This document shows positions 173 through 33,127 of a DNA stretch of 35,406 nt, in pieces (the stretch's first letter is position 1; each line of letters starts with the position of its first letter). This DNA is from Cystobacterineae bacterium. Its GTDB lineage: Bacteria; Myxococcota; Myxococcia; Myxococcales; Myxococcaceae. A program made the position numbers and the translations under genes. The notes under the pieces were generated by a model. It saw only the letters and a list, made by a program, of their open reading frames with translations. It did no database searches and was not told where the DNA came from. Where the stretch lies: NCBI GenBank assembly GCA_009782175.1, contig WRKR01000032.1, positions 1-35,406 on the forward strand, read 5' to 3'.

Positions 173-643
173 ATGCACAAAACTGAGAATGAAAAAGTGG
201 AAGCCATCATAGGCATGTTAAGGCGCCTCCAAAATAGAGGCTTTGAGGGTGCTGCTTTGTTGAGAGAAAAGTTTGAAGCTTTGGCCGCAATATCCGGCGA
301 GCACTATGCAGAAAAAATAGGGAGGAAGTTGGAAGAAACCTTGCGCTTTGCAGACAGGGGACAACCTGAAGCAACGCTACACTTGATGGCGCTTGCCGAG
401 TTTGTAGACAACGCCATTGTTGAAAAAACGCAATATGCCAAAGAGTTGGGGTTGCTCCTCCAAAGTTTGTGGGAGCCAAAGGCAGCGCATGCTCAAGCTT
501 CAATGCTGGTTTCAACCACGGCTTCAGTTGAGGCTTCAGCTTCAGCTTCAACTTCCATTTCAACTTCCATTTCCCCCGCAAATACAGAAGAGCCCAGGCC
601 AAAAAAAACAACCCTTTTATATGGGAAAAGCCCACTGGAGTGA
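173..643 (+). CDS. small hypothetical protein with Ala/Ser/Thr-rich repeat tail
   Basis: This is a 156-residue protein with ATG at 173, preceded by AGAGGG about 6 bases upstream. Residues 1-105 look helical and charged, with no signal peptide or membrane segment. Residues about 106-135 are a low-complexity Ala/Ser/Thr stretch built from six-base (GCTTCA-like) and 12-base (ACTTCCATTTCA) direct repeats. The C-terminus is basic. I do not recognise the family. It follows the partial gene at the left edge and converges on the exporter gene ending at 706. The reverse strand is also open over much of this stretch, but there the repeats translate to an implausible Lys/Leu run, so the plus strand is preferred. 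Confidence 0.5.
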   Translation: MHKTENEKVEAIIGMLRRLQNRGFEGAALLREKFEALAAISGEHYAEKIGRKLEETLRFADRGQPEATLHLMALAEFVDNAIVEKTQYAKELGLLLQSLWEPKAAHAQASMLVSTTASVEASASASTSISTSISPANTEEPRPKKTTLLYGKSPLE

Positions 644-705: not shown

Positions 706-3174
706 TTATTCCTTCACGGACATGGCCCATATGAAGGCGGCACTCATTCCGGGGAAGACGGCCAAAGCCAGGAGGTATACGGGCACGAAGGAGCTGAACA
801 GCAGTGCTCCGAAGGAAATGGCTGTGGTTATATAGGAGAGGCTAACGGTTAAACTCGTCAAAAAGCCCTTGGGCCCGGACGCGGGGTGCTCTGTGAGATA
901 GAACATAAAATCCAAACTCAGCCCGAGGACGAGTATAAACCCTGAAACACTGAAAAAAGAGAGGGGCTGGCCCACAAGGGCATAAACAGTCAGGCTTGCC
1001 AGGGCTGCAAAGAGGGGGGTAGCCATTATTTTAAAAGTTTTCAGCAGGTGGCGATAATAGAGCGCCACCCCCAGCACCAGAAGGCCGAAGGCCACACCCA
1101 AAAGCCCCATAATGGTGGCTGTCAACTTGTCCAATTCCGCAGAAATATCCTCCGCCTTGTTAATGGCGGTGGCCCACTCATATTCAGCAACCAGGCCCTT
1201 GGGGGAAACACTCAGGCCGGCCTGTGTTTTGCCCAAAGGGAGCAGCATGGAATGCCAAGCTTTCCCCTCAGCCGTGGGCTGCAAAAGGAGGTTGGAAAGC
1301 AACTGGGCAACCCAGGGGGGCACAGCCGCAGAAGAAGCCGCCATGCCCTGGGGAGCGGCCAGGTTTTGGGGGAGCGCATGCTGAGTGGCCAGCGCGGCAT
1401 ATTCCTCCTCCAGCAGCTGGGCGTTTTGGGGCGAAAAGCCCAGCGCCTCATATTGGGCAGGGGCCAGGGGGAGCAGCGCCGCGGCAGCCGCATGGCGCGC
1501 CTTTTGGGTTTTTATGGACGGAATAAAACGAGAAACCCCCCAAAAGCCGCCTTCAAATGCGCCGCCTTCCAATGCTTTGTCCAACGCCGAGAGGAGCAAC
1601 TCCTCATTTTCCAACAACTCCTGCAGAGAGGCGCCGGAAACCAGAAAACCGTTGCCTGTACCATAAGCCATTATGGCGGAGGCAACCCTCTCGTGCTCCA
1701 ACAGCTTTGGCGGAATGGCATAGAGGTTGCGGATGTCATTTTTTATGTGGAGGCCAGGCCCCAAAGCATGGCTTGCCAGGAGGGCCACCCCACAAAAAAG
1801 GCCAAGCCCCAGGGGCAAAAGCTTTTTGGTTTTGGCTGAAAAATATTTTTTCCCGCCCGCATAAAAGCCCATGGGGAAGTGGGTTTGGGCTGTATTTGTT
1901 TTTTTGCCTTTGCGGAGGGAGGGAATGAGGCAGGGGAAGAGGCCTGTCGTCGTCAAGTAGGAGCTTAAAAGCCCTATGGCAGAAAAGAGGGCAAATTGCC
2001 GCAAAATGCCAAAAGGGGCAAAAAGGAAAAGCAAAAAGCAAATGCAGGAGGAGAGGAAGCAGAGGGAAACGCCCTTAAAGAGGAGGCGGCCTATGGCCGG
2101 GCTTTCCAGTCCGCTCCCATGCCTTTGGACAAAAAAATGCATGCTATAGTCCACACTCAGCCCAATGAGGGAAATGCCAAAACTCAGGCTCAGCAGGTGT
2201 ATACTCCCCAATAAGAGGAGGGACGCGCACAGCCCTGTGGCTATGGAGAGGGCGGCTGCAAAAACAATGGCCAAGGCCGGCAGGGGAGAGCGGAAAACCC
2301 ACAAAAACAACAGCAACAACAGCAGTGTTGTTATGGTGCTGAGCAGGCTTATTTCTCGTTGGGCTTTGTTGGCGCTTTCAAAACTGTGGAAGGGAATGCC
2401 TGAAAAAACAAAACGCACAGCCCCCTCTCCCTCTGGGGGCGCCTTCTCCAAGGCCTCTGTCTGGCGGTATATTTCTCGTACACCGCCGCCTTTGCTGATG
2501 GAGGCGCCTGCCTCGCTGAGCCTCCCTTTCAGCAATACGTGGTGCTTGCCCTCAAAGGTTGCACTCAAAACCCCCTCCCGCAGAGAGAGGCCTCCTGTCA
2601 ACAGCGAGGAGTTTAAAAAATGGCGCATCCCTCTCTCGGCCAGGAGGAATGGATCTGCCTCTATATGCTCCATGCCGGCAACATGGAAAGCACCATAGGC
2701 CCAGCCCAGGGCCTCCTCCGCAAGGCTTTGGGCTTTTCCCTGTTCAAGCAAGGCAAGGGTTTGAGCATCCAACAACGCATAGCGGTATTTGTGCAAAAAG
2801 GCCGAAAACTCCAGCAGGGTGTTTTCCTCTATAAACAGAGAAAGCTCTTCAAAAAGCGCTTCGCCTTCGGCAGCTTGGGGTGCTGAAGCTTGGGCCACAT
2901 GGGGTTTGAGGGCCTCATAGAGTTTTTCTGCCCCCTCTTTGGCCAAGCCAAACTCTCCACTGGCGGTGAGGATGATGAAGTTTCGGTTGTGGTGCTGGGC
3001 AAAAAGCTGCTCCGCCTCCACGGCCTCCTTTTGAGAGGAGGAGTGAGGCAACATGGCCATCAGGTTCGTATCTATGGAAGGGGAAAACCCCAGCCCAGCG
3101 GAAAGCAGAAAAGCCAGGGCAAGGCCTATATGGAGGAGAAGCCAAAAGCTAAGGAGCAAAGAGGGCTTTTTCAT
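706..3174 (-). CDS. MMPL/RND-family exporter of the APE-like cluster (ApeM-like)
   Basis: About 822 residues, matching the COG4258-type 'predicted exporter' family. There is an N-terminal membrane helix, a periplasmic loop of roughly 220 residues, a block of about five membrane helices, a second helix with another large loop, and a final block of helices: the duplicated layout of RND/MMPL permeases. Exporters of this family are usual members of aryl-polyene clusters and are thought to move the lipid product out of the inner membrane. I place the start at ATG 3174; upstream GTG and TTG codons keep the frame open to 3180. It overlaps the end of the LolA-like gene by 26 bases, as expected for the last gene of one transcript. 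The substrate is inferred from context. Confidence 0.85.
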   Translation of the reverse strand: MKKPSLLLSFWLLLHIGLALAFLLSAGLGFSPSIDTNLMAMLPHSSSQKEAVEAEQLFAQHHNRNFIILTASGEFGLAKEGAEKLYEALKPHVAQASAPQAAEGEALFEELSLFIEENTLLEFSAFLHKYRYALLDAQTLALLEQGKAQSLAEEALGWAYGAFHVAGMEHIEADPFLLAERGMRHFLNSSLLTGGLSLREGVLSATFEGKHHVLLKGRLSEAGASISKGGGVREIYRQTEALEKAPPEGEGAVRFVFSGIPFHSFESANKAQREISLLSTITTLLLLLLFLWVFRSPLPALAIVFAAALSIATGLCASLLLLGSIHLLSLSFGISLIGLSVDYSMHFFVQRHGSGLESPAIGRLLFKGVSLCFLSSCICFLLFLFAPFGILRQFALFSAIGLLSSYLTTTGLFPCLIPSLRKGKKTNTAQTHFPMGFYAGGKKYFSAKTKKLLPLGLGLFCGVALLASHALGPGLHIKNDIRNLYAIPPKLLEHERVASAIMAYGTGNGFLVSGASLQELLENEELLLSALDKALEGGAFEGGFWGVSRFIPSIKTQKARHAAAAALLPLAPAQYEALGFSPQNAQLLEEEYAALATQHALPQNLAAPQGMAASSAAVPPWVAQLLSNLLLQPTAEGKAWHSMLLPLGKTQAGLSVSPKGLVAEYEWATAINKAEDISAELDKLTATIMGLLGVAFGLLVLGVALYYRHLLKTFKIMATPLFAALASLTVYALVGQPLSFFSVSGFILVLGLSLDFMFYLTEHPASGPKGFLTSLTVSLSYITTAISFGALLFSSFVPVYLLALAVFPGMSAAFIWAMSVKE

Positions 3175-3964
3175 CAACACTCAACTCAGCGGGGAAGGAG
3201 TGGTTATATAACTCATACACAATGCTGTTGCCGTTATGCTCATAAAAAACCACTTGGCGCAAAACAGCATTGCCCCGCATAACAATGGCTTTGACGAAGG
3301 CCTTGAGGGTGCTCTCTTTGGGCAAAAGCCCCAAATGCCACATGCCGTCTTTTTCTATAAAATACAACTCAAAGCTTTGAGAGAGTATTTGGGCGTTTCC
3401 GCCAAAAAGCGTGCTCATGGTTTGGGAAATGCGGATGAAGGTTTCATTGCCTGAAGCATCCATTCTCGTCGTCCTCCCGCCGCTGCTTTGCACCACAAAG
3501 TCTTTCCCCACCGCCGTGAGGGAAGGAAAGGGTATACGCGTATCCCAAACCATTCCCCGCTGAATATCTATGGCAAAAAACCCCTGGGAAACCAGGGAGC
3601 GGCCCAGACGGCTTAAGTGGTTGGTTTGTACAAACGCTCCCTTAAGCACCTTGTGTTGGGCCATGGCCTGGCAAACCTGCAAAAAACGAGGCTGGGTTTG
3701 GGCACTCAAAGGGTGGCTGAATATTTCTTCCTTGGCTTGGAGAGGAGGCTCCACCTGAGCAGAGGGGGAGGCCTGAGTTTGAGTCCCTGTTGGAGTTTGA
3801 GTCCCTGCCTGGGCGGGTGGTTTGGGCTGAGCAGGCATGGTTGTTTGAGCCCACAGTGGCCCAGGGGAAATAAGGAGGAGGGTGCAGAGGGTTTTTATGG
3901 AGGTTTTTATGGAGGTTTTTATATATGGCGGGTGCCAAGGGTTTTTATGGAGGGGTTTTGTCAT
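3149..3964 (-). CDS. LolA-like outer-membrane lipid carrier (ApeL-like)
   Basis: 271 residues. A signal peptide is visible: an unusually long n-region (about 25 residues), then a hydrophobic core and an ALWAQ-like cleavage region near residue 40. A Pro/Thr/Gln-rich linker follows. The rest, from about residue 95, reads as a LolA fold: an early KGAFVQTNHLSRLGR-like strand, then alternating beta strands and a Phe/Tyr-rich end. LolA paralogues accompany MMPL exporters in aryl-polyene clusters and probably carry the lipid product across the periplasm. The n-region contains a 12-base tandem repeat encoding I-K-T-S units. ATG 3964 overlaps the thioesterase end by 20 bases. Confidence 0.75.
   Translation of the reverse strand: MTKPLHKNPWHPPYIKTSIKTSIKTLCTLLLISPGPLWAQTTMPAQPKPPAQAGTQTPTGTQTQASPSAQVEPPLQAKEEIFSHPLSAQTQPRFLQVCQAMAQHKVLKGAFVQTNHLSRLGRSLVSQGFFAIDIQRGMVWDTRIPFPSLTAVGKDFVVQSSGGRTTRMDASGNETFIRISQTMSTLFGGNAQILSQSFELYFIEKDGMWHLGLLPKESTLKAFVKAIVMRGNAVLRQVVFYEHNGNSIVYELYNHSFPAELSVDEKALFAP
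3888..3952. repeat. 12-bp tandem repeat in a signal-peptide n-region
   Basis: Units of AGGTTTTTATGG (plus strand) occur at about 3888-3900, 3901-3912 and 3913-3924, with a further copy at 3939-3950. On the coding strand they encode repeated Ile-Lys-Thr-Ser. They lengthen the basic n-region of the LolA-like protein without changing frame. Confidence 0.85.
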
Positions 3965-4502
3965 GTTCCGCCCTTTCTCCTGTTATATTTTGCCCTGTTA
4001 TATTTTGCCCTGTCGTATTGTGCCCTGTCGTATTGTGTCCTGTTTCTTCCCGGGGTGTTTTGAAGAGTTTTGCTTTTCGCGCTTCCACTTTTTGAATGAG
4101 GAGGGGGGGGCAGACAAAGCGGGACTCATTTTTTGAAAGCTCAAAGGCCATTTGCGTCGTAACCCCTTTGGCGGCGAGCTCTCCTTGGGCATTAAAAAGC
4201 TCATAGCTGATCCGCAGTCTGTTTTCATATTCTTCCAAAACGGCTTTGGCGCGCGCTTTGTCGCCAAAACGCAAGGGGCGGATAAATTTAAGGGAGAGGT
4301 TTGTTACTGGGAAGACGAAGCCTGAGTCCCGCATGGCCAAATAGCCATAGCCAATGTCATCCAAGAGTGCGCAGCGGACTTGCTCCAAATATTTGGCATA
4401 GTTTCCGTGCCACACAATTTCCATCATATCCACCTCATAAAACTCCACGCTGAATTCTATTTCAGCGCTCAGTTGAGGCTCCGCCGTTTCAGCCACAGGC
4501 AT
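3945..4502 (-). CDS. hotdog-fold acyl thioesterase (4HBT family, ApeK-like)
   Basis: About 185 residues. A 4-hydroxybenzoyl-CoA thioesterase-type hotdog domain covers the first 135 residues, with the motif YEVDMMEIVWHGNYAKYLE, where the Asp and HGNY region form the usual active site. In an aryl-polyene-like cluster it would hydrolyse or proof-read acyl-ACP/CoA intermediates. ATG 4502 has AAGGAA six bases upstream; a GTG at 4520 overlapping the previous stop (GTGA) is an alternative start. The C-terminal tail is lineage-specific: four pentapeptide repeats TGHNT/TGQNI followed by a charged end, from a 15-base tandem repeat. The tail is unlikely to be part of the hotdog fold. Confidence 0.8.
   Translation of the reverse strand: MPVAETAEPQLSAEIEFSVEFYEVDMMEIVWHGNYAKYLEQVRCALLDDIGYGYLAMRDSGFVFPVTNLSLKFIRPLRFGDKARAKAVLEEYENRLRISYELFNAQGELAAKGVTTQMAFELSKNESRFVCPPLLIQKVEARKAKLFKTPREETGHNTTGHNTTGQNITGQNITGERAEHDKTPP
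3979..4038. repeat. 15-bp tandem repeat, four units, in the thioesterase tail
   Basis: CCTGTTATATTTTGC occurs twice perfectly (3979-3993, 3994-4008) and CCTGTCGTATTGTGC/T twice (4009-4023, 4024-4038). The unit length is a multiple of three, so the repeat extends the protein by pentapeptides. Confidence 0.95.
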
Positions 4503-4516
4503 ATGCAATTCCTTTT

Positions 4517-5620
4517 TCACCCCCAAAAGTCATAAAAATTATACCATTGGTAGGGGTTTTCCAAGAGGTGGGCTTCCAGGAGGGCGGCATAGTGCCGGGC
4601 CCAGTTTTCCATGGTTTTGTTTCGCTCTTTGCGAGAAGCGGGGTGTATCCCCTCTATGCTGCCCAGCCTGTGCACGTGCATATTATATTCCGGCCTGGGG
4701 GAGAGGTTTTTTTGCCTTAAGGCGAAGACGGCATAAACGGGGGCTTCGAGGAGGGCGGCCAACAAGAAGGGGCCTTTGGGGAAGGGGGCCTGTGCGCCGA
4801 GGAAGGGCAGGGAGAAGCAGTTGTTTCTGTTTTGAGCTGAAGTCCTGTCGGCGGCGATGACGGCCAGGCCTCCGCGCTCTATTTCTTCTTTGAGGAGAAT
4901 AATGGAGTTGGGGCCGATGGATTGGGCGTGGATGAGTTTGAGGGAGGAGCGCGGGTTTAAGGTGCTTAACAGGCGGCTGAAGAAGGGGCTTACATTATCC
5001 AAGACGGAGCTTACGGCTATTTCCCTGGAGACGCCGGTATATTGGTGGTCGGCCAAAGCCCTCAGCAACTCCGCATTGCCCAGGTGAGAGCAAAGCAAAA
5101 CAGCTCCCCTCCCTTTTTCCAGCGCCGCCACCAGTGTGGCCACCTCCTCACCTTGGAAGTGGATGCGCCTCAAAGGAATTTTCCCCCCCCAGGCCTGGGT
5201 TTTTTCAATAACCGTCAAAGCAAAAGCCACCATGTGTTTGAGGGCTGACAGCTTGCCCACCTCCCTGGGGTGGGTGTTTTTTTTGCGGCCTTTGCTGCCA
5301 GAGGTGCCGCCACCCAGCATGGGGCCCAAGCCATGCTCAGTGGAGGCAGTGCCCCACTCAGCAGGAGGGTTGAGGCTTTTATGTTGGAGGGAGGAGGCAT
5401 AAGCCGCATAGCGTTGGAGGAAGCGTTTGGATTCAGCCTTTGCATTTTTGGAGAAGAGGAAATAGCAAAACCCTATGGGGTAGGCCATGAGGCGCAGCAG
5501 GAAAGAGGGGAGGGTTTTGAAGAGAAGAAAAAACAAAACCATGTGCCAGAGGCCGGCTTTCTCTTTGTGTTCCGACCAATGTTTTGTGGTTTGGGGGTTT
5601 TTCGCCTCAGTATTTTTCAT
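4517..5620 (-). CDS. LpxL/HtrB-like lipid acyltransferase (COG4261 type)
   Basis: 367 residues. There is an N-terminal hydrophobic region (residues about 25-58), then the LpxL-type catalytic motif H-x4-E at His179-Glu184 (SHLGNAE), and downstream conserved AADRTSAQN and FPKGPFLLAALLE-like blocks. It should transfer an acyl chain from ACP to a lipid or glycolipid acceptor at the inner membrane. In many aryl-polyene clusters this domain is fused behind a glycosyltransferase; here the two are separate genes joined by an ATGA overlap at 5617-5620. Residues about 80-123 are a Gly/Ser/Pro-rich insertion that I would not expect in the family core. ATG 5620 is the start. Confidence 0.8.
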   Translation of the reverse strand: MKNTEAKNPQTTKHWSEHKEKAGLWHMVLFFLLFKTLPSFLLRLMAYPIGFCYFLFSKNAKAESKRFLQRYAAYASSLQHKSLNPPAEWGTASTEHGLGPMLGGGTSGSKGRKKNTHPREVGKLSALKHMVAFALTVIEKTQAWGGKIPLRRIHFQGEEVATLVAALEKGRGAVLLCSHLGNAELLRALADHQYTGVSREIAVSSVLDNVSPFFSRLLSTLNPRSSLKLIHAQSIGPNSIILLKEEIERGGLAVIAADRTSAQNRNNCFSLPFLGAQAPFPKGPFLLAALLEAPVYAVFALRQKNLSPRPEYNMHVHRLGSIEGIHPASRKERNKTMENWARHYAALLEAHLLENPYQWYNFYDFWG

Positions 5621-6363
5621 TCCAGTGTTGGGGGTTTTATTTTTCTAAAGAGGAGCAGAGGGAGGCGAAGGAGCATGCCGCAGAAGAGGCGGCTGAACAT
5701 GAGGGAGATGCGGGCATTGTCTTTCACCAGGCGGAAGTGGGAAATGCCGTCCTGGGGATAGCGGACTTTCACCGGGTGGAAGATGAGGGGAATGCCGGCC
5801 CAGGAGAGGCGCACCAATATTTCCGGATCAAAAGCCATGCGGTTGTCAATATAGCTGTGCTGCATAATGCGGAGGGTTTCTTCCACGGGGTATACTCTGA
5901 AGCCGCACAGAGAGTCGACAATGGCACCCGACAAACTCACCACCTTCGCCCATGCATTGGAAATATTCCTCCCTTTTTTTCGGAGCAGGGGCGCACTCTG
6001 GTCAAACTCTGGAAACCCGCAGATGGCGGCCCTGGGCTGTTGTGCCGAAGCCTCCAGAAAAAACCCCGCCCGTGCAGTGTCATGCTGGCCGTCAGCATCC
6101 ACCTGCAGCACATGAGAGAGGCCCATTTCCCGGGCCCTTTTCAGCCCTGCCCGGAATGCCGCCCCCTTGCCACGGTTTTTGTGCAGCCTCAGCGCGGAGC
6201 TTTGGGGAAAGGCAGACAACACCTCTGCCAGGGCTTTTTGGGTGGGCTCGTCGCTCCCATCATCCACAATGAGGATGGGGAGCCCATGGGGCTGCAAGCT
6301 GGCCACGAGCGCGTGGAGGGGTTGTCCGTGGTTATAGAGGGGAATAAGGAAGCCCTGCCTCAC
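5617..6363 (-). CDS. family 2 glycosyltransferase (ApeJ-like N-terminal half)
   Basis: 248 residues of a GT2/GT-A fold. IPLYNHG near the start, LIVDDGSDEP at 31-40 and the metal-binding DADGQ at 89-93 are the standard nucleotide-sugar motifs. The C-terminal basic-hydrophobic segment could lie on the membrane. It probably adds a sugar to the cluster's lipid product. The start is GTG 6363, which overlaps the stop of the upstream fusion gene as GTGA, indicating translational coupling. No ATG lies close by in frame. Confidence 0.82.
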   Translation of the reverse strand: MRQGFLIPLYNHGQPLHALVASLQPHGLPILIVDDGSDEPTQKALAEVLSAFPQSSALRLHKNRGKGAAFRAGLKRAREMGLSHVLQVDADGQHDTARAGFFLEASAQQPRAAICGFPEFDQSAPLLRKKGRNISNAWAKVVSLSGAIVDSLCGFRVYPVEETLRIMQHSYIDNRMAFDPEILVRLSWAGIPLIFHPVKVRYPQDGISHFRLVKDNARISLMFSRLFCGMLLRLPLLLFRKIKPPTLE

Positions 6364-8768
6364 AAGCCTTTCCTTTCACAAGCCTCATAGCCAATGGCCC
6401 CCGTGGAATAGAAGGTATTCTGGTCAGGGGACTTCAGGGCAAAGCGCACAAAGCTCAAGTTTTGTTTGGCATTTTGGGCAGGTTTTTCAAGTTGCAACTC
6501 GAGGTGGAGCCTCATGTTGGGAGAAACCATGGTGCTGAATTTAAGGCGTCTGGCACTGTGCACGCTAGGTTGTACGCCAGGTTGTGCAAGGGGCATGTGG
6601 GGGCCAAAAAGCTGTTTTGCACAAGCCTCTATAAGCTCAAACTGGGCGACGGCGGGGAGGATTTGGAAACCGGAAAAATGCCCATCAAAATAGAGGGAGC
6701 TGTCAGGGACAGCCAAGGCCACCAGTGCCTCATTTTCTGTTTGCCTTAGCACCGTTGCAAAAATGCCCTGGGGCAGAAGAAGGGTTTTGAGCTTTTCGTC
6801 CTTGGCGGGAGGCAAGTCATTTTCAGAAGGCTGAAACAGCTGTTGCAGGGCTTGTTTCTGTTGTTTCCCCTGGGGGTTTTTGGGCAGCGCTTCCACATAG
6901 CGCCAGCGTTTGGGGATGAGGGTGTTTTCAACAAAGGGCTGCAAATATTCCCTGAAATATTGGTTAACCCGAAATTTTTCAGCTCCTTTAAAGTGGGCTT
7001 TTCCTTTTTCATTCAAAACCACGGCGGCGGCCAAAAACTGACGTTTGCCCTCCAGCGCCACCACGGCCGCCTCTGCCACCAGTGGGGAGTGCAGGAGCCG
7101 GTTTTCTATTTCTGTCAGGGAAATACGTTTTTCTTCAATTTTGACAACCATATCCGCCCGGCCTTCCAGGAGAAAGCGCCCATGAGGAAGCAATTGCACC
7201 TTGTCTCCGGTGGCAAAGCCCTTTGCATTCTGAATATAAGGGGATTTGACAAGCAGACAGCCCTCTGCGTTTTTCTCAAGGTGGACTTTCTCAAAAGGCC
7301 TCCACTCGGGGCCTTGCTTGGACTGGCGCCAGGCGATGCCGGCCGTTTCTGTGCTGCCATATATTTCCACGGGCCAAAAGCCCAAAACCTGCTCTGTTGC
7401 CGCTGCCGTTTCCACAGGCAGTGCCCCGCCGGAGCTAAAAACCCACGGGGAGCGAAGGCCAACCCCCCGCTTGTCGCTTTTTTCGCCGCCGCCAACGGGC
7501 GTTTGAGAGGGTGCTGCCTCCTGTGTCGGAGGCGCCAAGGCCTCCACCGCGCGTTTGAGCAGGGCCGGCACCGTCACAATGAGATAAGAGTCGTCGTTCA
7601 ACGTGGTGAAAGTTTCTGGAAATTCAATACGCTCCCTGCGGAAGGGTATACCCGCCACAAAGGGCAACATAACGGAAAAGAGGAGGCCATAAATGTGCTG
7701 GGGGCTTGTGGTAGAGCACACTTTGCGCTTCAAACATTCTTCTCCCCATTGAGAGAGGACAAAGGCATTGTCATTTTCCAGCTCCTTAAGCCTTTGTTTG
7801 ACAGGTTTAGGCTTTCCGGTGGTGCCAGAGGTATAAATAACAATGCATGCCTCCTCGGGGTGAATGGTGGGGAAAGCCAGCTTGGCGTCGGCAGTGCTGG
7901 GCTGAGCAGTGCTGGTCTCAACGGTGTGGGCTTCCACAATGCGCGGTACATGGAAGCTGCATTCCAGCAAAGCCAGGGCTTCTTCTGTGTCGCAGAGCAG
8001 CGCCAGGGAGGCTGAGGGCTTGTCCGGGGTGGCCGAGGTGGTCGAGGCATTGTCGGCGGCTATTTCCGCAATATAGGCTTTGGAAATGTTGGGGAGGAGG
8101 AGCACTTCTTTTTTGCATTGCAACAAAGCCGTATAAGCCAGGAGGAAATACCAATAGTCATTGCAATGGAGGATCCACCGTGTTTGGGGTGTGGCTTCAA
8201 TGGTTTTGCGGAGTGCTGCGGTTTGGGCCAAAAAGTCCTTCCAGGTTTTGTATTGTTTCTCGCTGAAGGTACCGGAGAAGCAGAGCACGGCATCGGCTTT
8301 TCTGGAGTTGGGGGTGAAGGCAGAAAGTGGAATGGCCTTGGGAAGGGTTTTGTCCGTCATTTTTCTTAGGGCGAGCTCAATAGCAAAAAATGTCCCTATG
8401 AGTATATAGGAAATTCCGCCATTATAGAGTGCCCAGGCCGCGTCCGAAAGCCAGAAAACGCTGAAGAGCGAAAAGCCGCCATTGCAGACAAAAAAGAGGC
8501 ACCATGCAATGGTCACCTTGCGGCAATAGATGGCGACACGTTTTTCTCCGAGGGAGCCTTGTAGGGTGGGCGTGGGTTTCATTTTGTCTGCAAGCAGAGC
8601 AAAACGAAAGGCCATGGAAGGGGGGAGCTTTGGGCGTGGTTTTCCTTTGGGCGGCACCAAGCTATAGGCAAAAACAGCCAGGAGGAGGGCATTAATGCAA
8701 AGAGGATAAAGCTTGAGGGCGAGGGGCGAATGGCTAAAAAAGCAAAAGGCGCCTATGCCCAAAAGCAA
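6360..8768 (-). CDS. ApeG (C-terminal part)-ApeH-ApeI fusion: membrane protein, acyl-ACP ligase, dehydratase
   Basis: 802 residues in one frame. Residues 1-136 are the rear two-thirds of a COG4648 membrane protein, including KVTIAWCLFFVCNG and ALYNGGISYILIG. Residues 137-650 are an AMP-forming acyl ligase: P-loop-like YTSGTTGKPK at 312-321, EIYGSTETAG at 468-477, LEGRADMVVKIEEKR at 534-548, and Lys635 in LPKNPQGK. Residues about 660-802 are a hotdog dehydratase with YFDGHFSG and candidate catalytic His697. By analogy with aryl-polyene pathways, the ligase loads a starter acid on ACP and the dehydratase acts on 3-hydroxyacyl-ACP. The open frame begins at TTG 8768, but the true N-terminus lies upstream in another frame (see the entry at 8753-8974). 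ATG 8360 could serve a separate ligase start, though no stop separates the segments. Confidence 0.82.
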   Translation of the reverse strand: MLLGIGAFCFFSHSPLALKLYPLCINALLLAVFAYSLVPPKGKPRPKLPPSMAFRFALLADKMKPTPTLQGSLGEKRVAIYCRKVTIAWCLFFVCNGGFSLFSVFWLSDAAWALYNGGISYILIGTFFAIELALRKMTDKTLPKAIPLSAFTPNSRKADAVLCFSGTFSEKQYKTWKDFLAQTAALRKTIEATPQTRWILHCNDYWYFLLAYTALLQCKKEVLLLPNISKAYIAEIAADNASTTSATPDKPSASLALLCDTEEALALLECSFHVPRIVEAHTVETSTAQPSTADAKLAFPTIHPEEACIVIYTSGTTGKPKPVKQRLKELENDNAFVLSQWGEECLKRKVCSTTSPQHIYGLLFSVMLPFVAGIPFRRERIEFPETFTTLNDDSYLIVTVPALLKRAVEALAPPTQEAAPSQTPVGGGEKSDKRGVGLRSPWVFSSGGALPVETAAATEQVLGFWPVEIYGSTETAGIAWRQSKQGPEWRPFEKVHLEKNAEGCLLVKSPYIQNAKGFATGDKVQLLPHGRFLLEGRADMVVKIEEKRISLTEIENRLLHSPLVAEAAVVALEGKRQFLAAAVVLNEKGKAHFKGAEKFRVNQYFREYLQPFVENTLIPKRWRYVEALPKNPQGKQQKQALQQLFQPSENDLPPAKDEKLKTLLLPQGIFATVLRQTENEALVALAVPDSSLYFDGHFSGFQILPAVAQFELIEACAKQLFGPHMPLAQPGVQPSVHSARRLKFSTMVSPNMRLHLELQLEKPAQNAKQNLSFVRFALKSPDQNTFYSTGAIGYEACERKGL

Positions 8769-8974
8769 CAGGGCCTGGAAGAGAGGAAAAGGAAAAACCT
8801 TCTCCTGGGCTTTGGCAGTGTTTTTTTTTTGCCGGCGGTGGCCTCCAGAAAAAAGACAAGGCCGAAGGCAAGCAAAACCAGGGAAAAAACCTTCAAGGGA
8901 ATTTCAAAGACGACAAGGCCGCAGAAAACCAGAAGGGGATATAGCGCCGCCGCTATGTAAAGAAAAAATTTCAC
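8753..8974 (-). CDS. ApeG N-terminal fragment, separated by a frameshift at an A10 tract
   Basis: The frame starts at GTG 8974, overlapping the stop of the second ACP gene as GTGA. It reads the typical opening of a COG4648 membrane protein (KFFLYIAAALYPLLVFCG, then a second hydrophobic segment). After the ten-A tract at 8821-8830 (coding strand) it turns into a basic, unrelated tail and stops at 8753. Shifting the frame at the tract, by gaining one A or losing two, joins it through NTAKAQEKVFPFPLFQALLLL to the membrane segment of the 6360-8768 frame and restores a full-length ApeG. It is therefore either a frameshift mutation, a sequencing error, or a gene read through by slippage. Confidence 0.7.
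   Translation of the reverse strand: MKFFLYIAAALYPLLVFCGLVVFEIPLKVFSLVLLAFGLVFFLEATAGKKKTLPKPRRRFFLFLSSRPCCFWA
8821..8830 (-). other. A10 homopolymer (coding strand): frameshift or slippage site in apeG
   Basis: Ten T on the plus strand are ten A in the apeG mRNA sense, exactly where conserved ApeG sequence jumps between frames. A tract of 8 or 11 A would keep the frame. Long A tracts are known sites of RNA-polymerase slippage and of homopolymer sequencing error. Confidence 0.8.
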
Positions 8975-9213
8975 GGGACGGGAGGACAAAGCACGTCCAC
9001 CACATTTTGAATGGTTTTCACATGCTTAAACTGCTCAGGCTCTATTTTGCCTGAAACATAAGGCTTCATTTTAACAATTAAATCCACCGCATCAATGGAA
9101 TCCAAATCCAAGTCCGAAGCAAGGTTTGCCTCTGGCCTAATATCGCTTTCTTCAAGCCCAAATTCCGAAACAAGCACTTCTTTGAGTTTAATAAAAACCC
9201 CATCCTTCGTCAT
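8971..9213 (-). CDS. acyl carrier protein (second of two, ApeF-like)
   Basis: 80 residues, the usual ACP length. The phosphopantetheine site is DLDSID with Ser39; acidic helices precede and follow it. It would carry acyl intermediates for the ligase, dehydratase and thioesterase of this cluster. ATG 9213 overlaps the stop of the first ACP as ATGA, and its own stop overlaps the GTG of apeG as GTGA, so the ACP pair and apeG are translationally coupled. Confidence 0.9.
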   Translation of the reverse strand: MTKDGVFIKLKEVLVSEFGLEESDIRPEANLASDLDLDSIDAVDLIVKMKPYVSGKIEPEQFKHVKTIQNVVDVLCPPVP

Positions 9214-9482
9214 TTTCCAGTCTCCGCTCCAGCCTGTGTCATAATATATGCTGCTAAGGCGTCCACTGAAGCAAAGTGTTTCCTGTTGTCTGCACTTTCC
9301 GTAGAAAATTTAATACCGAATTTTTTCCTGAGGGCAATCCCCAGCTCCAAAGCATCAATGGAATCCAACCCCAGCCCCTCGCCGAAAAGGGGATCAGCGT
9401 CCACAATGTTTTCAGGTTTAATATCCTCTAATTCCAAGGCACTGACAATGAGTTCCTTTATCTCCAGCTTCAACTCTTCCAT
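9210..9482 (-). CDS. acyl carrier protein (first of two, ApeE-like)
   Basis: 90 residues with the ACP motif GLGLDSIDALELG; Ser41 is the expected phosphopantetheine attachment site. It is more acidic and longer than the second ACP. As the first gene of the minus arm it starts at ATG 9482, about 200 bp from the divergent methyltransferase. The promoter must lie in the repeat-filled gap 9483-9688. Paired ACPs are typical of aryl-polyene clusters. Confidence 0.9.
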   Translation of the reverse strand: MEELKLEIKELIVSALELEDIKPENIVDADPLFGEGLGLDSIDALELGIALRKKFGIKFSTESADNRKHFASVDALAAYIMTQAGAETGK

Positions 9483-9491
9483 GCGGGGCCA

Positions 9492-9517
9492 TTCAATAGA
9501 TCAATTCAATAGATCAA
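9492..9517. repeat. perfect 13-bp tandem duplication upstream of the ACP genes
   Basis: TTCAATAGATCAA occurs at 9492-9504 and again at 9505-9517, immediately upstream of the first ACP start (9482). It is AT-rich compared with its surroundings and falls where the 5' leader or ribosome site of the minus-arm operon must be. Confidence 0.9.
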
Positions 9518-9541
9518 TCAACCCCCATCTCAACCTGTGCC

Positions 9542-9638
9542 CCGCAAAACCCAGGCCTCAAAAACCAAGCCTCAAAACCCAGGCCGCAAAACCCAAGCCT
9601 CAAAACCCAGGCGCAAAACCCAGGCCTCAAAAACCATA
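9542..9638. repeat. 14-bp tandem repeat, seven units, in the divergent promoter region
   Basis: The consensus CCTCAAAACCCAGG occurs in seven consecutive copies of 14, 14, 14, 14, 14, 13 and about 14 bp, with CCTC and CCGC variants at the head. It fills most of the gap between the two arms of the cluster (ACP at 9482, methyltransferase at 9689). There are no spacers, so it is not a CRISPR array. I see no clear -35/-10 boxes in the gap. Confidence 0.92.
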
Positions 9639-9688
9639 GCTTCCACTGGGTGCGGACAGGCCTTCAATTGTGTGCTAGCCCCCATAAC

Positions 9689-10912
9689 ATGGATGAGAGC
9701 GCCTATGAGAAAGACATTTCTGCCGTCGCCGCAAAATTTGAAGCCCAAAAAATTGCTTTTGCACCCCTGGCTTTTCAGGCCGTGCGGGCTTTGCGGGACT
9801 TAAATATACTTCGCGCTGTGGAAAAGGCTGGAAACTTAGGGCTCAGCCGGGAAGAGGTGGCACAGCAGGCAGGCATTTCCACCTATGGCGCCGGGGTGCT
9901 CCTCGAAATGGCATTGGGCCTAGGTGTAGTCAAATGGGCCAGCACCCCAGCTCATGTCTGTAACACCCATAGGGCTGGTGCGTCTACAATTCAACAGCCC
10001 ATGGAAGGCCCTGTGGAATGCCCTGTAGAACGCCCTGAAGAACGCCCTGAAGAAGGCCCTGAAGAAGGCCCTGAAGAACGCTTTGTAGAACGCTTTGTAT
10101 TGGGAAAAACCGGTTGGTTTCTTTTGGAAGATGAAATGACTGAGGTAAATTTCAATTTTGTCAACGACCTTTGCTATCAGGGAGCCTTTAGGCTTAAAGA
10201 GGCCATTCAAACGGGCAAACCTCAAGGGCTTGAGGTGTTTGGCTGTTGGCCGACCATTTATGATGCATTGGCCTCTTTGCCCAAAGAGGCCCAAAAAAGC
10301 TGGTTGGAGTTTGATCATTTTTATTCCAGCATTGCCTTCCCTGAAGCCCTGCCTTTGGTGTTTCGCCACCCCAAACCCTCCTCTCTGTTGGATATAGGCG
10401 GGAATACGGCCAAATGGGCGGTGCTGTGCTGCAAGTATGACAATACCATCCAAATAACCGTGGCGGATTTGCCTGGCCAAACAGCCATGGCAGAAAAAAA
10501 TGCGGCCGCCGCAGGCTTTGCAAAACGCATTTCCACATACCCTTGCAATGTGTTGGCTCCTGGCTCAGCCCTGCCCCAAGGCCATGAGGCCATTTGGATG
10601 AGCCAATTCCTCGATTGTTTTGCCCTGGAGGATGTGACAAAAATTTGCCAAAAAGTTGCCGCCGTGTGCACCGCCCAAACCAGGGTTTATGTGTTGGAGC
10701 CCCTTTGGGACAAACAGTGTTTTGAGGCGGCGGCTTTTTCCCTTCAGGCCACAAGCCTCTATTTTACGTGCATGGCCAACGGGCGCAGCAAAATGTACCG
10801 CTATGAGGAGTTGAAACAAGCCATAGAAGCAGGCGGCCTTTCCTTGACGGAAGAGTGGCACAACTTGGGCTCCAACTCTTATTCCCTCCTGGGCTTTAGG
10901 CTGGGCACATGA
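9689..10912 (+). CDS. SAM-dependent O-methyltransferase (ApeB-like)
   Basis: 407 residues from ATG 9689; a GTG at 9650 keeps the frame open upstream but its translation looks non-native. A winged-helix dimerisation domain comes first (RALRDLNILRAVEKAG, then EEVAQQAGISTYGAGVLLEM). The SAM-binding domain has LLDIGGNTAKWA and VADLPGQ. This is the plant-COMT/Methyltransf_2 arrangement. In aryl-polyene clusters a methyltransferase of this kind modifies the aryl head, which would be its likely role here. Between the two domains an insertion of eight 12-base units encodes E-x-P-x tetrapeptides. Its stop overlaps the next start as ATGA at 10909-10912. Confidence 0.75.
   Translation: MDESAYEKDISAVAAKFEAQKIAFAPLAFQAVRALRDLNILRAVEKAGNLGLSREEVAQQAGISTYGAGVLLEMALGLGVVKWASTPAHVCNTHRAGASTIQQPMEGPVECPVERPEERPEEGPEEGPEERFVERFVLGKTGWFLLEDEMTEVNFNFVNDLCYQGAFRLKEAIQTGKPQGLEVFGCWPTIYDALASLPKEAQKSWLEFDHFYSSIAFPEALPLVFRHPKPSSLLDIGGNTAKWAVLCCKYDNTIQITVADLPGQTAMAEKNAAAAGFAKRISTYPCNVLAPGSALPQGHEAIWMSQFLDCFALEDVTKICQKVAAVCTAQTRVYVLEPLWDKQCFEAAAFSLQATSLYFTCMANGRSKMYRYEELKQAIEAGGLSLTEEWHNLGSNSYSLLGFRLGT
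10001..10096. repeat. 12-bp tandem repeat, eight units, inside the methyltransferase
   Basis: Units such as GAAGAAGGCCCT and GTAGAACGCTTT run end to end from 10001 to 10096, encoding EGPV, ECPV, ERPE, ERPE, EGPE, EGPE, ERFV, ERFV. The frame is kept. The insert is acidic and Pro-rich, probably an exposed loop between the winged-helix and SAM domains. Confidence 0.95.
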
Positions 10913-11628
10913 GCTCCACAAAGTTTTTTGAAGGCTGCCAGGTTTTGCGCTATAGCGCCTGGCGCCCAACCCCCAAAGAGCCTCTGCCGGACATCAGCTT
11001 TGTGGACGCTCGCCTGCGCCGCCGGATGTCCATGCTTTCTCGCATGAGTGTGCGCGTGGCCCATGGCCTTGGGCCCTTAGGCAAAAATACCTCACTGTAT
11101 TTTATTTCATTCCGAGGAGAGCTGAACCAGCAGTTTGAGGTGAATAGAATGCTCATTGAAGAAGGAGAAATATCCCCCGCCGCCTTCTCCCTTTCCGTAT
11201 TCAACACACCCCCGGCACTCTCTTCCATGGCCCTGGGCCTTCATGCAGGCTATAGTGCAGTATACCCCGAGAGAAACCGCTTCTCTTCAGCCCTGCTGGG
11301 GGCCGCCTCTTTCCATGCCGCTTCCTCCCCCTCAAAACAACTGGTTTTGGTTTATGCCGACGAGGTGCCCCTGAAAGAATATGAGCGCCTTGAGGAAAAC
11401 CCCCACAGCCTGGCCTTCGCCCTGCTCTTGGGCGCCACCCCCACGGCCAAAGCGCAGAGCGCGGCAACACAGGCAGCGCCAGCGCATAGGCAAGAGGAGG
11501 CAAGCTTCTCCCTGTCCACACTCTCCTGGGAGGACTGCGAGAGCCCTCAGCGCTTTTTAAAAGCTTTGGAAGCGGCAAGCTTGGAAGCTGCACAACAAAG
11601 AGGGCAGAATGGAGCCTTGCATGTTTGA
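10909..11628 (+). CDS. ketosynthase-like protein (Ketoacyl-synt_2 family, ApeC-like)
   Basis: 239 residues resembling the short N-terminal-type beta-ketoacyl-synthase family seen beside APE genes. Conserved-looking blocks are YSAWRPTP near residue 15, PDISFVDARLRRRMSMLSRM and NTPPALSSMALGLHAGYSA; no ACxSG-type active-site Cys is seen. In characterised aryl-polyene systems ApeC is the non-catalytic partner of the ketosynthase ApeO. No ApeO is present in this window. The C-terminal 60 residues are Ala/Gln-rich. ATG 10909 overlaps the methyltransferase stop (ATGA), and the gene overlaps the next one by up to 20 bases, so the three plus-arm genes form one transcript. Confidence 0.7.
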   Translation: MSSTKFFEGCQVLRYSAWRPTPKEPLPDISFVDARLRRRMSMLSRMSVRVAHGLGPLGKNTSLYFISFRGELNQQFEVNRMLIEEGEISPAAFSLSVFNTPPALSSMALGLHAGYSAVYPERNRFSSALLGAASFHAASSPSKQLVLVYADEVPLKEYERLEENPHSLAFALLLGATPTAKAQSAATQAAPAHRQEEASFSLSTLSWEDCESPQRFLKALEAASLEAAQQRGQNGALHV

Positions 11629-12427
11629 GCGCATTTCCCCCAAGCGCAGTCCCTTTAAACGCAACCCTTTTCAGCGCATTGTCTATGCCTGGCGGGTTTT
11701 GGCCAAGTGGCTTTCTTTTGGTATTTTCGGCCTGGGTACGCTGGTGCTCGTGGTGGTTTTTTTTCCGCCCATGCGGCTTGTTTTTCACCCCAAAAAACGC
11801 TTTCAGAAAAATGCCCGCCTGCTGGTCTCGCTGAGCCTTCGTTTCTTCGTTAGGGTGATGACTTTTTTGGGAATTGTAAAGTTGGAAGCCGGAGACAAAA
11901 CCGCCTATAGAAACTTGAAGGGCAAAATTGTCGCCGCCAACCATCCCTCCCTCTTGGATGTTGTTATGCTTATTTCCCTCATCCCCAATGCGGACTGCAT
12001 TGTACGCAGCAGCCTGAGCAAAACCGTCGTTAATGGCATTATACGGCAGCTTTATATCCTCAATAACTTGAGTTTTGAGCAATTGCTGGCCGATTGCACC
12101 GCCTCCCTCAATGAGGGGAATTGCATTATTATTTTTCCCGAAGGCTCCAGGACGCTAAGGAATGCTCAGCCCCTTTTTAAAAAAGGAGCTGCCAGAATTT
12201 CCCTGGCCTCAGGTTGCAACATTGTGCCCGTGCACATTGGGGGTACGGACAAATATGGCATTGGAAAGAAAGATCCATGGACGGCTTTTAACCCGCAGGA
12301 AAAATATATTTATCAACTCCAGATGAAGGCAGAGCTGTCCCCCGAAAAATATTCCACAGAGCCTCATGCTTTGGGCGTTAAACACTATAACCAGGAATTA
12401 TATCGAACCTTGTTAAACCAGGGATAG
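11609..12427 (+). CDS. PlsC-like 1-acylglycerol-3-phosphate-type acyltransferase (ApeD-like)
   Basis: 272 residues. A basic N-terminus and a hydrophobic helix precede the PlsC motifs: NHPSLLD (NHx4D) near residue 110 and FPEGSR near residue 173, followed by VHIGG. It should transfer an acyl group to a glycerol- or sugar-lipid acceptor at the inner membrane, which fits anchoring of an aryl-polyene-type product. ATG 11609 has GAGGG four bases upstream; ATG 11621 with GGAG at a seven-base distance is an equally good start. Confidence 0.85.
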   Translation: MEPCMFERISPKRSPFKRNPFQRIVYAWRVLAKWLSFGIFGLGTLVLVVVFFPPMRLVFHPKKRFQKNARLLVSLSLRFFVRVMTFLGIVKLEAGDKTAYRNLKGKIVAANHPSLLDVVMLISLIPNADCIVRSSLSKTVVNGIIRQLYILNNLSFEQLLADCTASLNEGNCIIIFPEGSRTLRNAQPLFKKGAARISLASGCNIVPVHIGGTDKYGIGKKDPWTAFNPQEKYIYQLQMKAELSPEKYSTEPHALGVKHYNQELYRTLLNQG

Positions 12428-12545: not shown

Positions 12546-13562
12546 ATGGGTGGAGAAATGGGCGGCGTCAAAGTCATGGATAGAGCAGAAACCTTCCCTC
12601 AAAAAAACAAAGCACGCTGTTTTTTCCTCACCTTTGTTTCTCGCCTCTTCCTCGCCTTCTTCTGTTTGCTTGTTTTGGAAGGCTGCAAAACCATCGGCAC
12701 GGCCAACACCCGCGCGTTTCCCCCTGGGGTGGTCGTTTTTAGTTTTGATGATGGGCCCAATGCGCATGAGGATACTACCCTCAGGCTTTTGGAAGTGCTG
12801 GAAAAACACAACATCCGCGGCTGCTTCTCCCTCTTTGGCGTCAACGCTGAGCGCCACCCCCACCTGGTTAGACGCATCCTCGCCGGAGGCCACCGCATTA
12901 TCAACCACGGCTATGTGGAAACATGGGCCGTCTTCCTGGATGCGAAAGCCTTTAGGGCCAACCTCTGGGCAGGAGAAAGGGCCATTGACCATGCTCTCAA
13001 TGGCCTCAATGGCCTCAATGGCCTTGCACCCCAAAACAAGAGCCCCCCAATATCCCCGACCACAACACCGCTTGCACAAGGCCCTGCACAAGGCCCTGCA
13101 CAAAACTCTGTACAAAGCCCTGCACAAGGCCCTGCACACAGCTCTGCGCAAAACTCATTTGTTGAAATGCCGCGTGTTGAGGAAGCGTCGCTGCCTTTGG
13201 TTTATCGTCCTCATGGGGGGTTTTATACGGGGAAGCAGAGGCATATCTGGGAGCAACAGGGCTATAAAATGGCGCCTTGTACGGTTCGCATCTATGACGC
13301 TGTTATGGGTGTTGCTGACAGGGACAGAGCCATTGCGCAGGCTGTCAGCAAAATTGAAAAGCAAAGGGGGGGAATACTCCTGCTGCATGACAGCAAGGAT
13401 TCCTATGTGACGATGGAAGCACAAATGGCTTTAAACCCCCAGGGGCCTTTCAACCGCAGTTGGATTCCTGAGGCGGTGGAGGAGATGATCTCCATTTTGC
13501 AGGAAAAGGGCTATTCCATGAGCGGGTTTGATCCCTTCGAAATACCGGGGGTCCTCCAATAG
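12546..13562 (+). CDS. polysaccharide deacetylase (NodB family), probable lipoprotein, with altered metal motif
   Basis: 338 residues if started at ATG 12546; ATGs at 12558 and 12576 are alternatives and none has a convincing ribosome site. A hydrophobic segment ends at LVLEGC (Cys47), a plausible though non-standard lipobox (Glu at -2). NodB motifs follow: FSFDDGPN at 65-72, RPHGG at 221-225 and ILLLHD near 280. Motif 2, normally H-S/T-x-x-H, reads H-G-Y-V-E (121-125), so one metal-binding His appears to be Glu. Residues about 151-205 are an insertion of NGL tripeptides and AQGP-type tetrapeptides from tandem repeats. It likely acts on envelope polysaccharide, if active. Its link to the preceding cluster is only positional. 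Confidence 0.75.
   Translation: MGGEMGGVKVMDRAETFPQKNKARCFFLTFVSRLFLAFFCLLVLEGCKTIGTANTRAFPPGVVVFSFDDGPNAHEDTTLRLLEVLEKHNIRGCFSLFGVNAERHPHLVRRILAGGHRIINHGYVETWAVFLDAKAFRANLWAGERAIDHALNGLNGLNGLAPQNKSPPISPTTTPLAQGPAQGPAQNSVQSPAQGPAHSSAQNSFVEMPRVEEASLPLVYRPHGGFYTGKQRHIWEQQGYKMAPCTVRIYDAVMGVADRDRAIAQAVSKIEKQRGGILLLHDSKDSYVTMEAQMALNPQGPFNRSWIPEAVEEMISILQEKGYSMSGFDPFEIPGVLQ
12996..13154. repeat. 9-bp (x3) and 12-bp (x7) tandem repeats inside the deacetylase
   Basis: CTCAATGGC occurs three times at 12996-13022, encoding Asn-Gly-Leu repeats. CCTGCACAAGGC-like units occur seven times at 13071-13154, encoding AQGP/AQNS/VQSP tetrapeptides. Both keep the frame and fall between NodB motifs 2 and 3. Confidence 0.93.
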
Positions 13563-26596: not shown

Positions 26597-27436
26597 TTAG
26601 GGTTGAAGAAGCTTCCATAACAAAGCCTCAAGGCCAATGCATGCGCCCTGCCCTCCGCGCCCAAGCCTTTGCTGTACCTCTGCGGCGGAGGCACCGGCAG
26701 GAAGGCACCAGAAGAAGTGCAATTGGGTGGAAGTGAGGGCCTGTGCATGCATAGAGGTGAGGCAGTCGTCCCAACTGTCGCCGACGAAGAGGGCGAAGCG
26801 GCTCCCTTCAAGCAGAGGGAGGAGGGCGTTGGGGTTGGGCTTTTTGACAGTTTCGCAGCTGACGAAGGCTTGGGGGGAAAGGCCAAAGGCGGCAAAGGCC
26901 GCAAGCGTTTGCTCCCTCGTGCGCCCCGTACAGGCATATAGGGGAAGGCGTGCGGCCACCTGCCCAAGCAGGGAAGCCTCCACGAGGGTTATTTCCTCAT
27001 GGGCAATGTGTGCATAGAGGCGCTCGCACTCGGCGCTTAAGTCACCCGGGTCGTCCCCGCCGACGAGTTGAAGCACACAGGGAAGTCCCGCGTCGGGGGT
27101 GAGGAGGGCGCTTAAGGGGCGCATGTCGCCACTGCGCTGGCGGTAGCGGAATACCCCCAGGGCCGCCCGCGCCAAATCCCAGTCGTCGTTGAAGCCGCCG
27201 GCCCATTTGAAAGCGGCAATGTCCTCGTCGCTTAAGGTGGCGCCCTCGCGCGACAGAAGCTTTCTCCCCACGGCATAATAGGAGGAGGAAGGGTCCACCA
27301 GCACGCCGTCTATGTCCAGAATGAGGCGATCCACCTGCCCAGGAAAGCTTCCAAAGAGTTTGCCCTCCTCGCTTTTTCGCCCCAAGCCATGCTGCGCGGG
27401 CGCGGTGGCGGCCTTCCCGTCTGCGACGTTCGGCAC
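26597..27436 (-). CDS. HAD-superfamily phosphatase, candidate histidinol-phosphate phosphatase
   Basis: 279 residues. HAD motif I is DIDGVLVD (nucleophile Asp41, acid/base Asp43). The downstream motifs are CTGRTREQ (II), SCETVKKPNP (III) and FVGDSWDDC (IV). The start resembles the HAD clade (TIGR01548-like) that is sometimes fused to HisC. It lies between hisDC and hisB, so dephosphorylation of histidinol phosphate, the step between HisC and HisD, is the natural proposal. The start is GTG 27436, overlapping the hisDC TAG by one base (TAGTG). The first 35 residues look poorly conserved. Function is inferred from position. Confidence 0.78.
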   Translation of the reverse strand: MPNVADGKAATAPAQHGLGRKSEEGKLFGSFPGQVDRLILDIDGVLVDPSSSYYAVGRKLLSREGATLSDEDIAAFKWAGGFNDDWDLARAALGVFRYRQRSGDMRPLSALLTPDAGLPCVLQLVGGDDPGDLSAECERLYAHIAHEEITLVEASLLGQVAARLPLYACTGRTREQTLAAFAAFGLSPQAFVSCETVKKPNPNALLPLLEGSRFALFVGDSWDDCLTSMHAQALTSTQLHFFWCLPAGASAAEVQQRLGRGGQGACIGLEALLWKLLQP

Positions 27437-29802: not shown

Positions 29803-30427
29803 AGCCGGCCTCGTTGGCGCGCGTAGAAAGCAGTTGAAGGAAGGCGTCAACCTCATGGCGGCGCAGCCAGAAGGAGGCGCGGTTAGCAATGACGCGGGCG
29901 GAAATGGGGGCCACTTCTTCCAGCACCACGAGGCCATTCTCCTGAAGGGTGCGTCCTGTTTCCACCAAGTCCACAATGGCGGTAGCCATGCCTGTCAGCA
30001 AAGCCACCTCAATGGTGCCATAGAGGGGAATGAGGTCGCCCATGAGGCCGCGTTGTTGGAGTGCGCGCAAGGTAGTGCGGGGGAATTTGGTAGCCACGCG
30101 CAGTTGTCCTGAGGCGTGGAGGGCAGCGAGGGAGGTGTGGGGTTTGCCGCAAAACACCATTTTGCAAATGCCAAAGCCCAAGTCCAAAGGCTCGAGGACG
30201 TCGGCCTTGCTTTCGTTGAGCACATCGGAGCCGACAATGCCGACGTCGGCGCCGCCGCGCTCCACATAAATGGGAATGTCCGCGTCTTTAAGGGGCAGAA
30301 ACTCTAAGGGGCCTTGTGTGAGCAGGAGTTTGCGTGAAGAGAGTGCTTCGGCGTCGGGTGCTTGGGGGCCGAGCAGTTGCAGGACGGTTTTTTTAAGGCG
30401 CCCTTTAGGCAAGGCAATGCGCAGCAT
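29780..30427 (-). CDS. hisG: ATP phosphoribosyltransferase, short form
   Basis: 215 residues. It starts LRIALPKGRL from ATG 30427, which overlaps the hisZ stop by one base (TGATG). The PRPP-binding loop IVDLVETGRTLQENGL is clear, and the C-terminal regulatory domain of long-form HisG is absent. The short form is inactive without the HisZ subunit, which is encoded directly upstream. It catalyses the first, committed step: ATP plus PRPP to phosphoribosyl-ATP. Confidence 0.95.
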   Translation of the reverse strand: MLRIALPKGRLKKTVLQLLGPQAPDAEALSSRKLLLTQGPLEFLPLKDADIPIYVERGGADVGIVGSDVLNESKADVLEPLDLGFGICKMVFCGKPHTSLAALHASGQLRVATKFPRTTLRALQQRGLMGDLIPLYGTIEVALLTGMATAIVDLVETGRTLQENGLVVLEEVAPISARVIANRASFWLRRHEVDAFLQLLSTRANEAGYAHFPLL

Positions 30428-33002: not shown

Positions 33003-33127
33003 TTTACTACGAAAGTCGAACATCCATCAACGTGAGCAGTGGACAATTGCCTCCGGGGTGGATTTAATGAAGGCAATAAATGGAGGGGGAAGTTGAGCGT
33101 GTGGGCCCTCACAGAAGGAATCCTCTA

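Follow-up and report, generated by a model that had tools for sequence, protein, structure and literature searches.

The window analysed here, which is the whole of contig WRKR01000032.1 (35,406 nucleotides; C32 hereafter) of a Cystobacterineae bacterium, carries one half of an aryl-polyene (ape) gene set, and the other genes of the pathway were found on contigs C2 and C1 of the same genome. In all likelihood these three loci make up a complete aryl-polyene-type lipid pathway of spirochaete-like source, of which the half from apeB to apeM has moved and in which the fused GHI protein would be made by slippage at a run of ten adenines (A10). By gene content this is a normal pathway of the aryl-polyene (APE)/flexirubin type with an unusual organisation, that is, a known kind of pathway in a new arrangement, and its activity is predicted from that content. 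The genes do not form a single cluster: there are two ape loci and a lone lyase gene. The host assembly (G000) comprises 2.70 Mb in 65 contigs and is 99.95% complete.

The window encodes half of an aryl-polyene gene set

Pfam scans confirmed that the ape genes listed by the first-pass annotation are real and divergently arranged, the exporter being recognised through weak NCBIfam RND matches. The window layout is apeE-F-G/H/I-J-K-L-M on the minus strand, divergent from apeB-C-D on the plus strand. The minus arm starts with two acyl carrier proteins (ACPs), ApeE (ACP 1, 9210-9482) and ApeF (ACP 2, 8971-9213), both with a PP-binding domain and a DSID motif and scoring above the cut-offs of NCBIfam NF006617 and NF003757, respectively. 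The apeG 5' open reading frame (ORF; 8753-8989) encodes a membrane segment whose homologue in spirochaetes is the N-terminus of a continuous GHI ORF, and the ORF at 6360-8768 fuses the C-terminal part of apeG with apeH (adenylation; Pfam AMP-binding and AMP-binding_C) and apeI (dehydratase). The best NCBIfam match of this second ORF was a 4-coumarate-CoA ligase model, below its cut-off, and a FabA match for the ApeI dehydratase was found only in the homologous C-terminus of the GHI protein of spirochaete G060. The apeJ gene is present as two genes, a family 2 glycosyltransferase for the N-terminal half (5617-6363; Glycos_transf_2) and an LpxL-like acyltransferase for the C-terminal half (4517-5620; Lip_A_acyltrans), both of which match a single ORF in family member G023.

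The arm continues with apeK, a hotdog thioesterase (3945-4526; 4HBT_2/4HBT) with 66-69% identity in the nearest spirochaete clusters, and apeL, a LolA-like lipid carrier (3149-3964; LolA_3, above cut-off) whose best NCBIfam match was LolA2_flexi. The last gene, apeM (706-3180), encodes an MMPL/RND-type exporter that had no Pfam match, matched HpnN/HAE3-type RND models of NCBIfam below their cut-offs, and was 28-54% identical to the gene at the apeM position of spirochaete clusters. The plus arm comprises apeB, a FlxJ-type S-adenosylmethionine-dependent methyltransferase (9650-10912; Methyltransf_2 and the FlxJ family), apeC, the chain length factor (CLF) that is the partner of ApeO (10909-11628; PF13723, 101.7 bits), and apeD, a PlsC-like acyltransferase (11609-12427; PF01553). 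The sole PDB match of ApeC was chain B of 6qsp (E 7e-4). The methyltransferase also contains a repetitive insertion rich in Pro and Glu (VERPEERPEEGPEE...) that separates its two matched stretches.

Among the ape genes of the window, profile scans found neither an elongation ketosynthase (KS) nor a ketoreductase (KR) nor ApeP, in agreement with the first-pass annotation, and a genome-wide KS search (PF00109) listed no match on C32.

The elongation and starter genes lie on two other contigs

The results of the PF00109 search of the whole genome showed five matches, two of them on C2, where apeN-O-P-Q-R lies in canonical order on the minus strand, read from 47818 down to 43545. This set exactly complements that of the window: ApeN is a DUF3261 lipoprotein, ApeO and ApeR are KSs and ApeQ is a FabG-like reductase, while the putative dehydratase ApeP was assigned by its position between ApeO and ApeQ together with weak scores. 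The export and attachment set is complete as well, with ApeD, J, K, L and M in the window and ApeN on C2. ApeR passed NF006587 (643 against a cut-off of 470), ApeQ passed the FabG/FabG2 equivalog models, and the translations show the Cys-His-His motif of the KSs, the Ser-Tyr-Lys motif of the KR and the DSID motif of the ACPs. The best PDB match of ApeO was 6qsp_A; 6QSP is the ApeO-ApeC complex of Xenorhabdus doucetiae (PMC8358021), so that ApeO of C2 and ApeC of the window match the two chains of one KS-CLF complex with their genes on separate contigs. Of the fates that had been proposed for the missing elongation genes, presence elsewhere in the genome is thus the one that applies, and their loss is refuted by the C2 locus. 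A separate housekeeping fabF/G/D/H operon is located on C2, about 10 kb from the ape genes. Another of the five matches was a large polyketide synthase (PKS)-type KS on C38, in an open frame of 2319 amino acids; it was set aside as the elongation enzyme once apeO and apeR had been found on C2.

The search for an aryl-starter enzyme, which the first-pass annotation had proposed alongside that for the elongation genes, led to C1. A tyrosine ammonia-lyase (TAL) of the FlxA type is encoded there at 180032-181561 (L059:10033-11562), passing the NF053541 FlxA TAL model with 814 bits against a cut-off of 700. The gene is isolated from the ape genes, beside Cas genes, and has a homologue of 57-58% identity in congener G001. 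No UbiC-type chorismate lyase was found in the genome as an alternative source of the starter. The FlxA-type lyase was not found in the spirochaetes searched, four of which had homologues of 32-34% identity, and the in-cluster lyases of family members G023 and G032 best matched a different model (BagA/FevW).

The protein families suggest the following steps, with their predicted substrate and product. TAL would supply 4-coumarate, which the ApeH domain of GHI would load on ApeE; ApeR and the ApeO-ApeC heterodimer would extend the chain with malonyl units on ApeF; ApeQ would reduce it, and ApeP and the ApeI domain would dehydrate it to a conjugated polyene. ApeB would methylate the ring, ApeK would release the chain, the two ApeJ proteins and ApeD would attach it to a lipid, and ApeM, ApeL and ApeN would export the product to the outer membrane.

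The apeGHI reading frame is broken at a run of ten adenines

The apeG 5' ORF and the apeH/I ORF meet in different frames at an A10 homopolymer (8821-8830, minus strand; T10 on the plus strand), and the zero frame of apeG stops at a TAG soon after it. The two ORFs are one gene interrupted at this run, which the first-pass annotation had overlooked. The AMP-binding domains for activation of an aryl acid by ApeH are present, and their full reading requires a change of frame at A10, the site proposed to join the two frames by transcriptional slippage. Congeners G001 and G002 have the identical A10 and the identical offset despite differing linker lengths, and the GHI gene of Treponema locus L076 reads through the junction in frame.

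A survey of 47 distinct GHI junction sequences showed that 28 were in frame, with A runs of 1 to 11, and that the 19 frame-shifted junctions all had exactly A10. Eighteen of these 19 were restored by one added A; the sole junction shifted in the opposite direction, L223 (G248), was checked by eye and is also an A10 with the other offset. The frame state of GHI changed at least eight times on the tree. In the control, the other 15 ape genes (314,568 coding bases) contained no run of 10 A and no frame break. For stimulators of ribosomal -1 frameshifting, RNA folding downstream of the run was not consistently stronger than that of shuffled sequences in the three congeners (z of -1.4, -2.4 and +0.2).

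We favour programmed transcriptional slippage as the best explanation of the A10 junction because of its strict conservation, the clean control genes, the known slippage at A runs from about nine upwards and the inconsistent RNA structure. Synthesis of the full GHI protein would depend on slippage of RNA polymerase (or the ribosome) at A10, typically with the gain of one A. Judged from these sequences, we lean towards a wider scenario in which programmed slippage would let one gene yield both a short ApeG and the full ApeGHI and would recur across the gut Spirochaetota, and in which this device would have entered a reduced-genome lineage of another phylum by horizontal transfer, the cluster being split there afterwards.

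The main rival, which we consider rather unlikely, is that the run is a phase-variation switch working by replication slippage instead of by programmed slippage during expression. Homopolymer runs are hypermutable, and G156 (L210), a relative of a shifted clade, has an A11 and is in frame; such a switch, however, predicts mixed run lengths, and all 19 distinct frame-shifted sequences have exactly A10. It is more doubtful still that the short apeG and apeH/I are two overlapping genes with independent starts, as might be supposed from the distinct apeG and apeH genes of Escherichia coli. Relatives without a long A run have one continuous ORF, and the HI frame of G002 is closed by a TAA at the run and then has no ATG, GTG or TTG for about 200 nucleotides downstream. 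A start there would lie beyond a conserved membrane segment encoded in this frame, so that only a change of frame at the run gives this segment.

Probable rearrangement of the cluster

The position of the two ape loci in their contigs argues for a genuine split. The apeN-R genes are internal to the 128-kb contig C2, with about 43 kb on one side and about 80 kb on the other, and congeners G001 and G002 share the gene order of C2 between 19 and 39 kb (genes 57-96% identical), which indicates that C2 is native to the host lineage. In G002 the apeE-F-GHI-J genes adjoin an amidotransferase gene that lies at 57.2 kb of C2 in G000, and the gene after apeR in G001 is a kinase gene that lies at 64.2 kb of C2 in G000. 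These comparisons suggest one ancestral contiguous cluster near 43-66 kb of C2, of which the B-to-M half later moved to the C32 tract. ApeC was not found in G002, which has GHI and whose assembly is only 88% complete. An empty apeN-R site beside ilvE was not found in G002, where the flanking genes differ, and the exact rearrangement cannot be reconstructed. Among the spirochaetes, G069 and G071 have apeJ to apeR contiguous, G060 has apeM and apeN on the same contig with about 8.4 kb separating them, and G063 has the two halves on different contigs.

The left edge of the window bears on the same question. The first-pass annotation had the minus arm end at the exporter with two unrelated genes beyond it. 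The exporter is indeed the last ape gene seen, but the boundary is an assembly break and not a known end of the cluster, and a single candidate gene was observed to its left. This gene (173-643, plus strand; 156 amino acids) lies within a repeat of about 650 bp (1-655) at the contig edge, outside the pathway, that is found 12 times in the genome, with most of the listed occurrences at or near contig ends. The repeat may have broken the assembly here. Since positions 1-400 belong to the repeat with its 12 places, no unique neighbour of the left edge can be named. The 156-amino-acid ORF had no Pfam match, and the repeat may represent a gene family that is mobile or expanding.

A window that begins inside a multicopy repeat, and congeners that carry their ape genes on short contigs of 4.7-7.8 kb, are what would be expected if the cluster were in fact physically unbroken and the split an artefact of misassembly or misbinning of C2 or C32. 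We regard this as very improbable, given that apeN-R lies deep inside C2, that C2 is colinear with both congeners, that the window-edge repeat had no match on C2 and that the break between apeM and apeN recurs in spirochaetes G060 and G063. A degenerate or repurposed pathway, in which housekeeping fatty-acid enzymes replace the missing ones and make a different aryl lipid, as the first-pass annotation had suggested from the window without KS, KR and ApeP, could also appeal to the housekeeping fab genes and the broken GHI frame, but it is scarcely credible, as every dedicated partner is encoded elsewhere in the genome, ApeC is kept and is meaningful only with ApeO, and the strict A10 at the frame break of 19 distinct sequences is not decay.

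Several points weigh against the reading of a complete, spirochaete-like pathway at three loci. The scores of ApeP were below the cut-offs (FabA, 22.2 against 23; ApeP-like, 20.1 against 27), and so were those of the flexirubin-type matches (FlxB, 276 against 340; FlxJ, 430 against 560; LolA2, 58 against 125). No match to the C1 lyase was found in spirochaetes G060 and G063, and the choice of 4-coumarate over 4-hydroxybenzoate as the starter is a prediction. A chimeric join in C2 is formally conceivable, though the window-edge repeat gave no match there.

Relationship to spirochaete clusters

A search of named genomes with ApeR showed that, after G001, the closest matches were mostly gut Treponema and Spirochaetaceae assemblies. 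Congener G001 is the termite-gut metagenome-assembled genome (MAG) Co191P4bin16, from a Cornitermes host; the termite MAG paper includes four Polyangiaceae MAGs (PMC7024585), which makes Polyangiaceae a candidate for the host family. In the ApeO tree, G000 and G001 were nested among gut spirochaetes with an SH-aLRT support of 99, and GHI was likewise placed inside the spirochaete group. Family members with genomes of 5-13 Mb bear ape clusters of their own, which are contiguous in G023 and G032. Vertical inheritance from the host family was rejected, as an approximately unbiased test excluded an ApeO clade with the family's own copies (p 2e-76). These placements suggest that the cluster came from termite-gut spirochaetes or shares a recent source with them.

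The nearest relatives were clusters of termite-gut Treponema and Spirochaetaceae, among them L079, L091, L061 and L065, four clusters with identities of 75-77% for ApeR and 58-64% for ApeO. These spirochaetes share the GHI fusion with the host, several have A10 and two are also split between apeM and apeN; many of their clusters are contiguous, unlike that of the host. This affinity with gut spirochaetes suggests that an envelope pigment has passed between phyla that inhabit a common gut.

Comparison with known systems

The core functions of the host pathway are those of ape A-R of E. coli CFT073, X. doucetiae and Acinetobacter, the order N-O-P-Q-R of C2 is identical to theirs, and ApeO and ApeC match the chains of 6QSP. 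The E. coli pathway is encoded by one cluster in one orientation and uses a 4-hydroxybenzoate starter, whereas the host has three loci, a frame-broken GHI fusion, an ApeJ divided between two genes and a TAL to provide the starter. Comparison with the flexirubin (Flx/dar) system of Bacteroidota showed that the host TAL passes FlxA and that the methyltransferase, the LolA-like protein and the KR match FlxJ, LolA2_flexi and FlxB, respectively; only FlxA passes its cut-off, however, and the ApeO-ApeC pair and the gene order follow the APE pattern. A pathway at three loci would be scored incomplete by cluster-based tools, and this dispersed arrangement indicates that the genes of KS and CLF partners need no linkage.

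Slippage is known to occur at A runs that reach a length of about nine (PMC1088944). In Thermus dnaX (A9), insertion sequence elements and Blochmannia, a coding run of at least about this length coincides with a change of frame and is maintained by selection, as would be the case here (PMC1088944; PMC3711429), but the ape run, in contrast to these genes, keeps a length of exactly ten in many species. No paper linking aryl-polyene genes with slippage was found in the literature searched. The conserved A10 junction is a more surprising result than the split pathway, and its strictness makes it a testable case of expression slippage that would control the entry enzyme of a secondary-metabolite pathway.

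Other features of the window

A polysaccharide deacetylase gene (12546-13562, plus strand; PF01522) lies next to apeD. Its homologues (47-51% identity) are in or beside the spirochaete ape loci L064, L074, L076 and L136, mostly adjoining apeD, and it is probably an accessory gene of this type of ape cluster. Outside the pathway, congeners G001 and G002 have several partial homologues of the GLUG-motif protein at 33080-35044, which is absent from the other family members searched. The window also encodes two fusion proteins, a BioDA-like protein of 733 amino acids (22299-24500) with BioD-like and class III aminotransferase domains, and a HisD-HisC-like protein of 846 amino acids (27436-29976) that combines a histidinol dehydrogenase with a class I/II aminotransferase.

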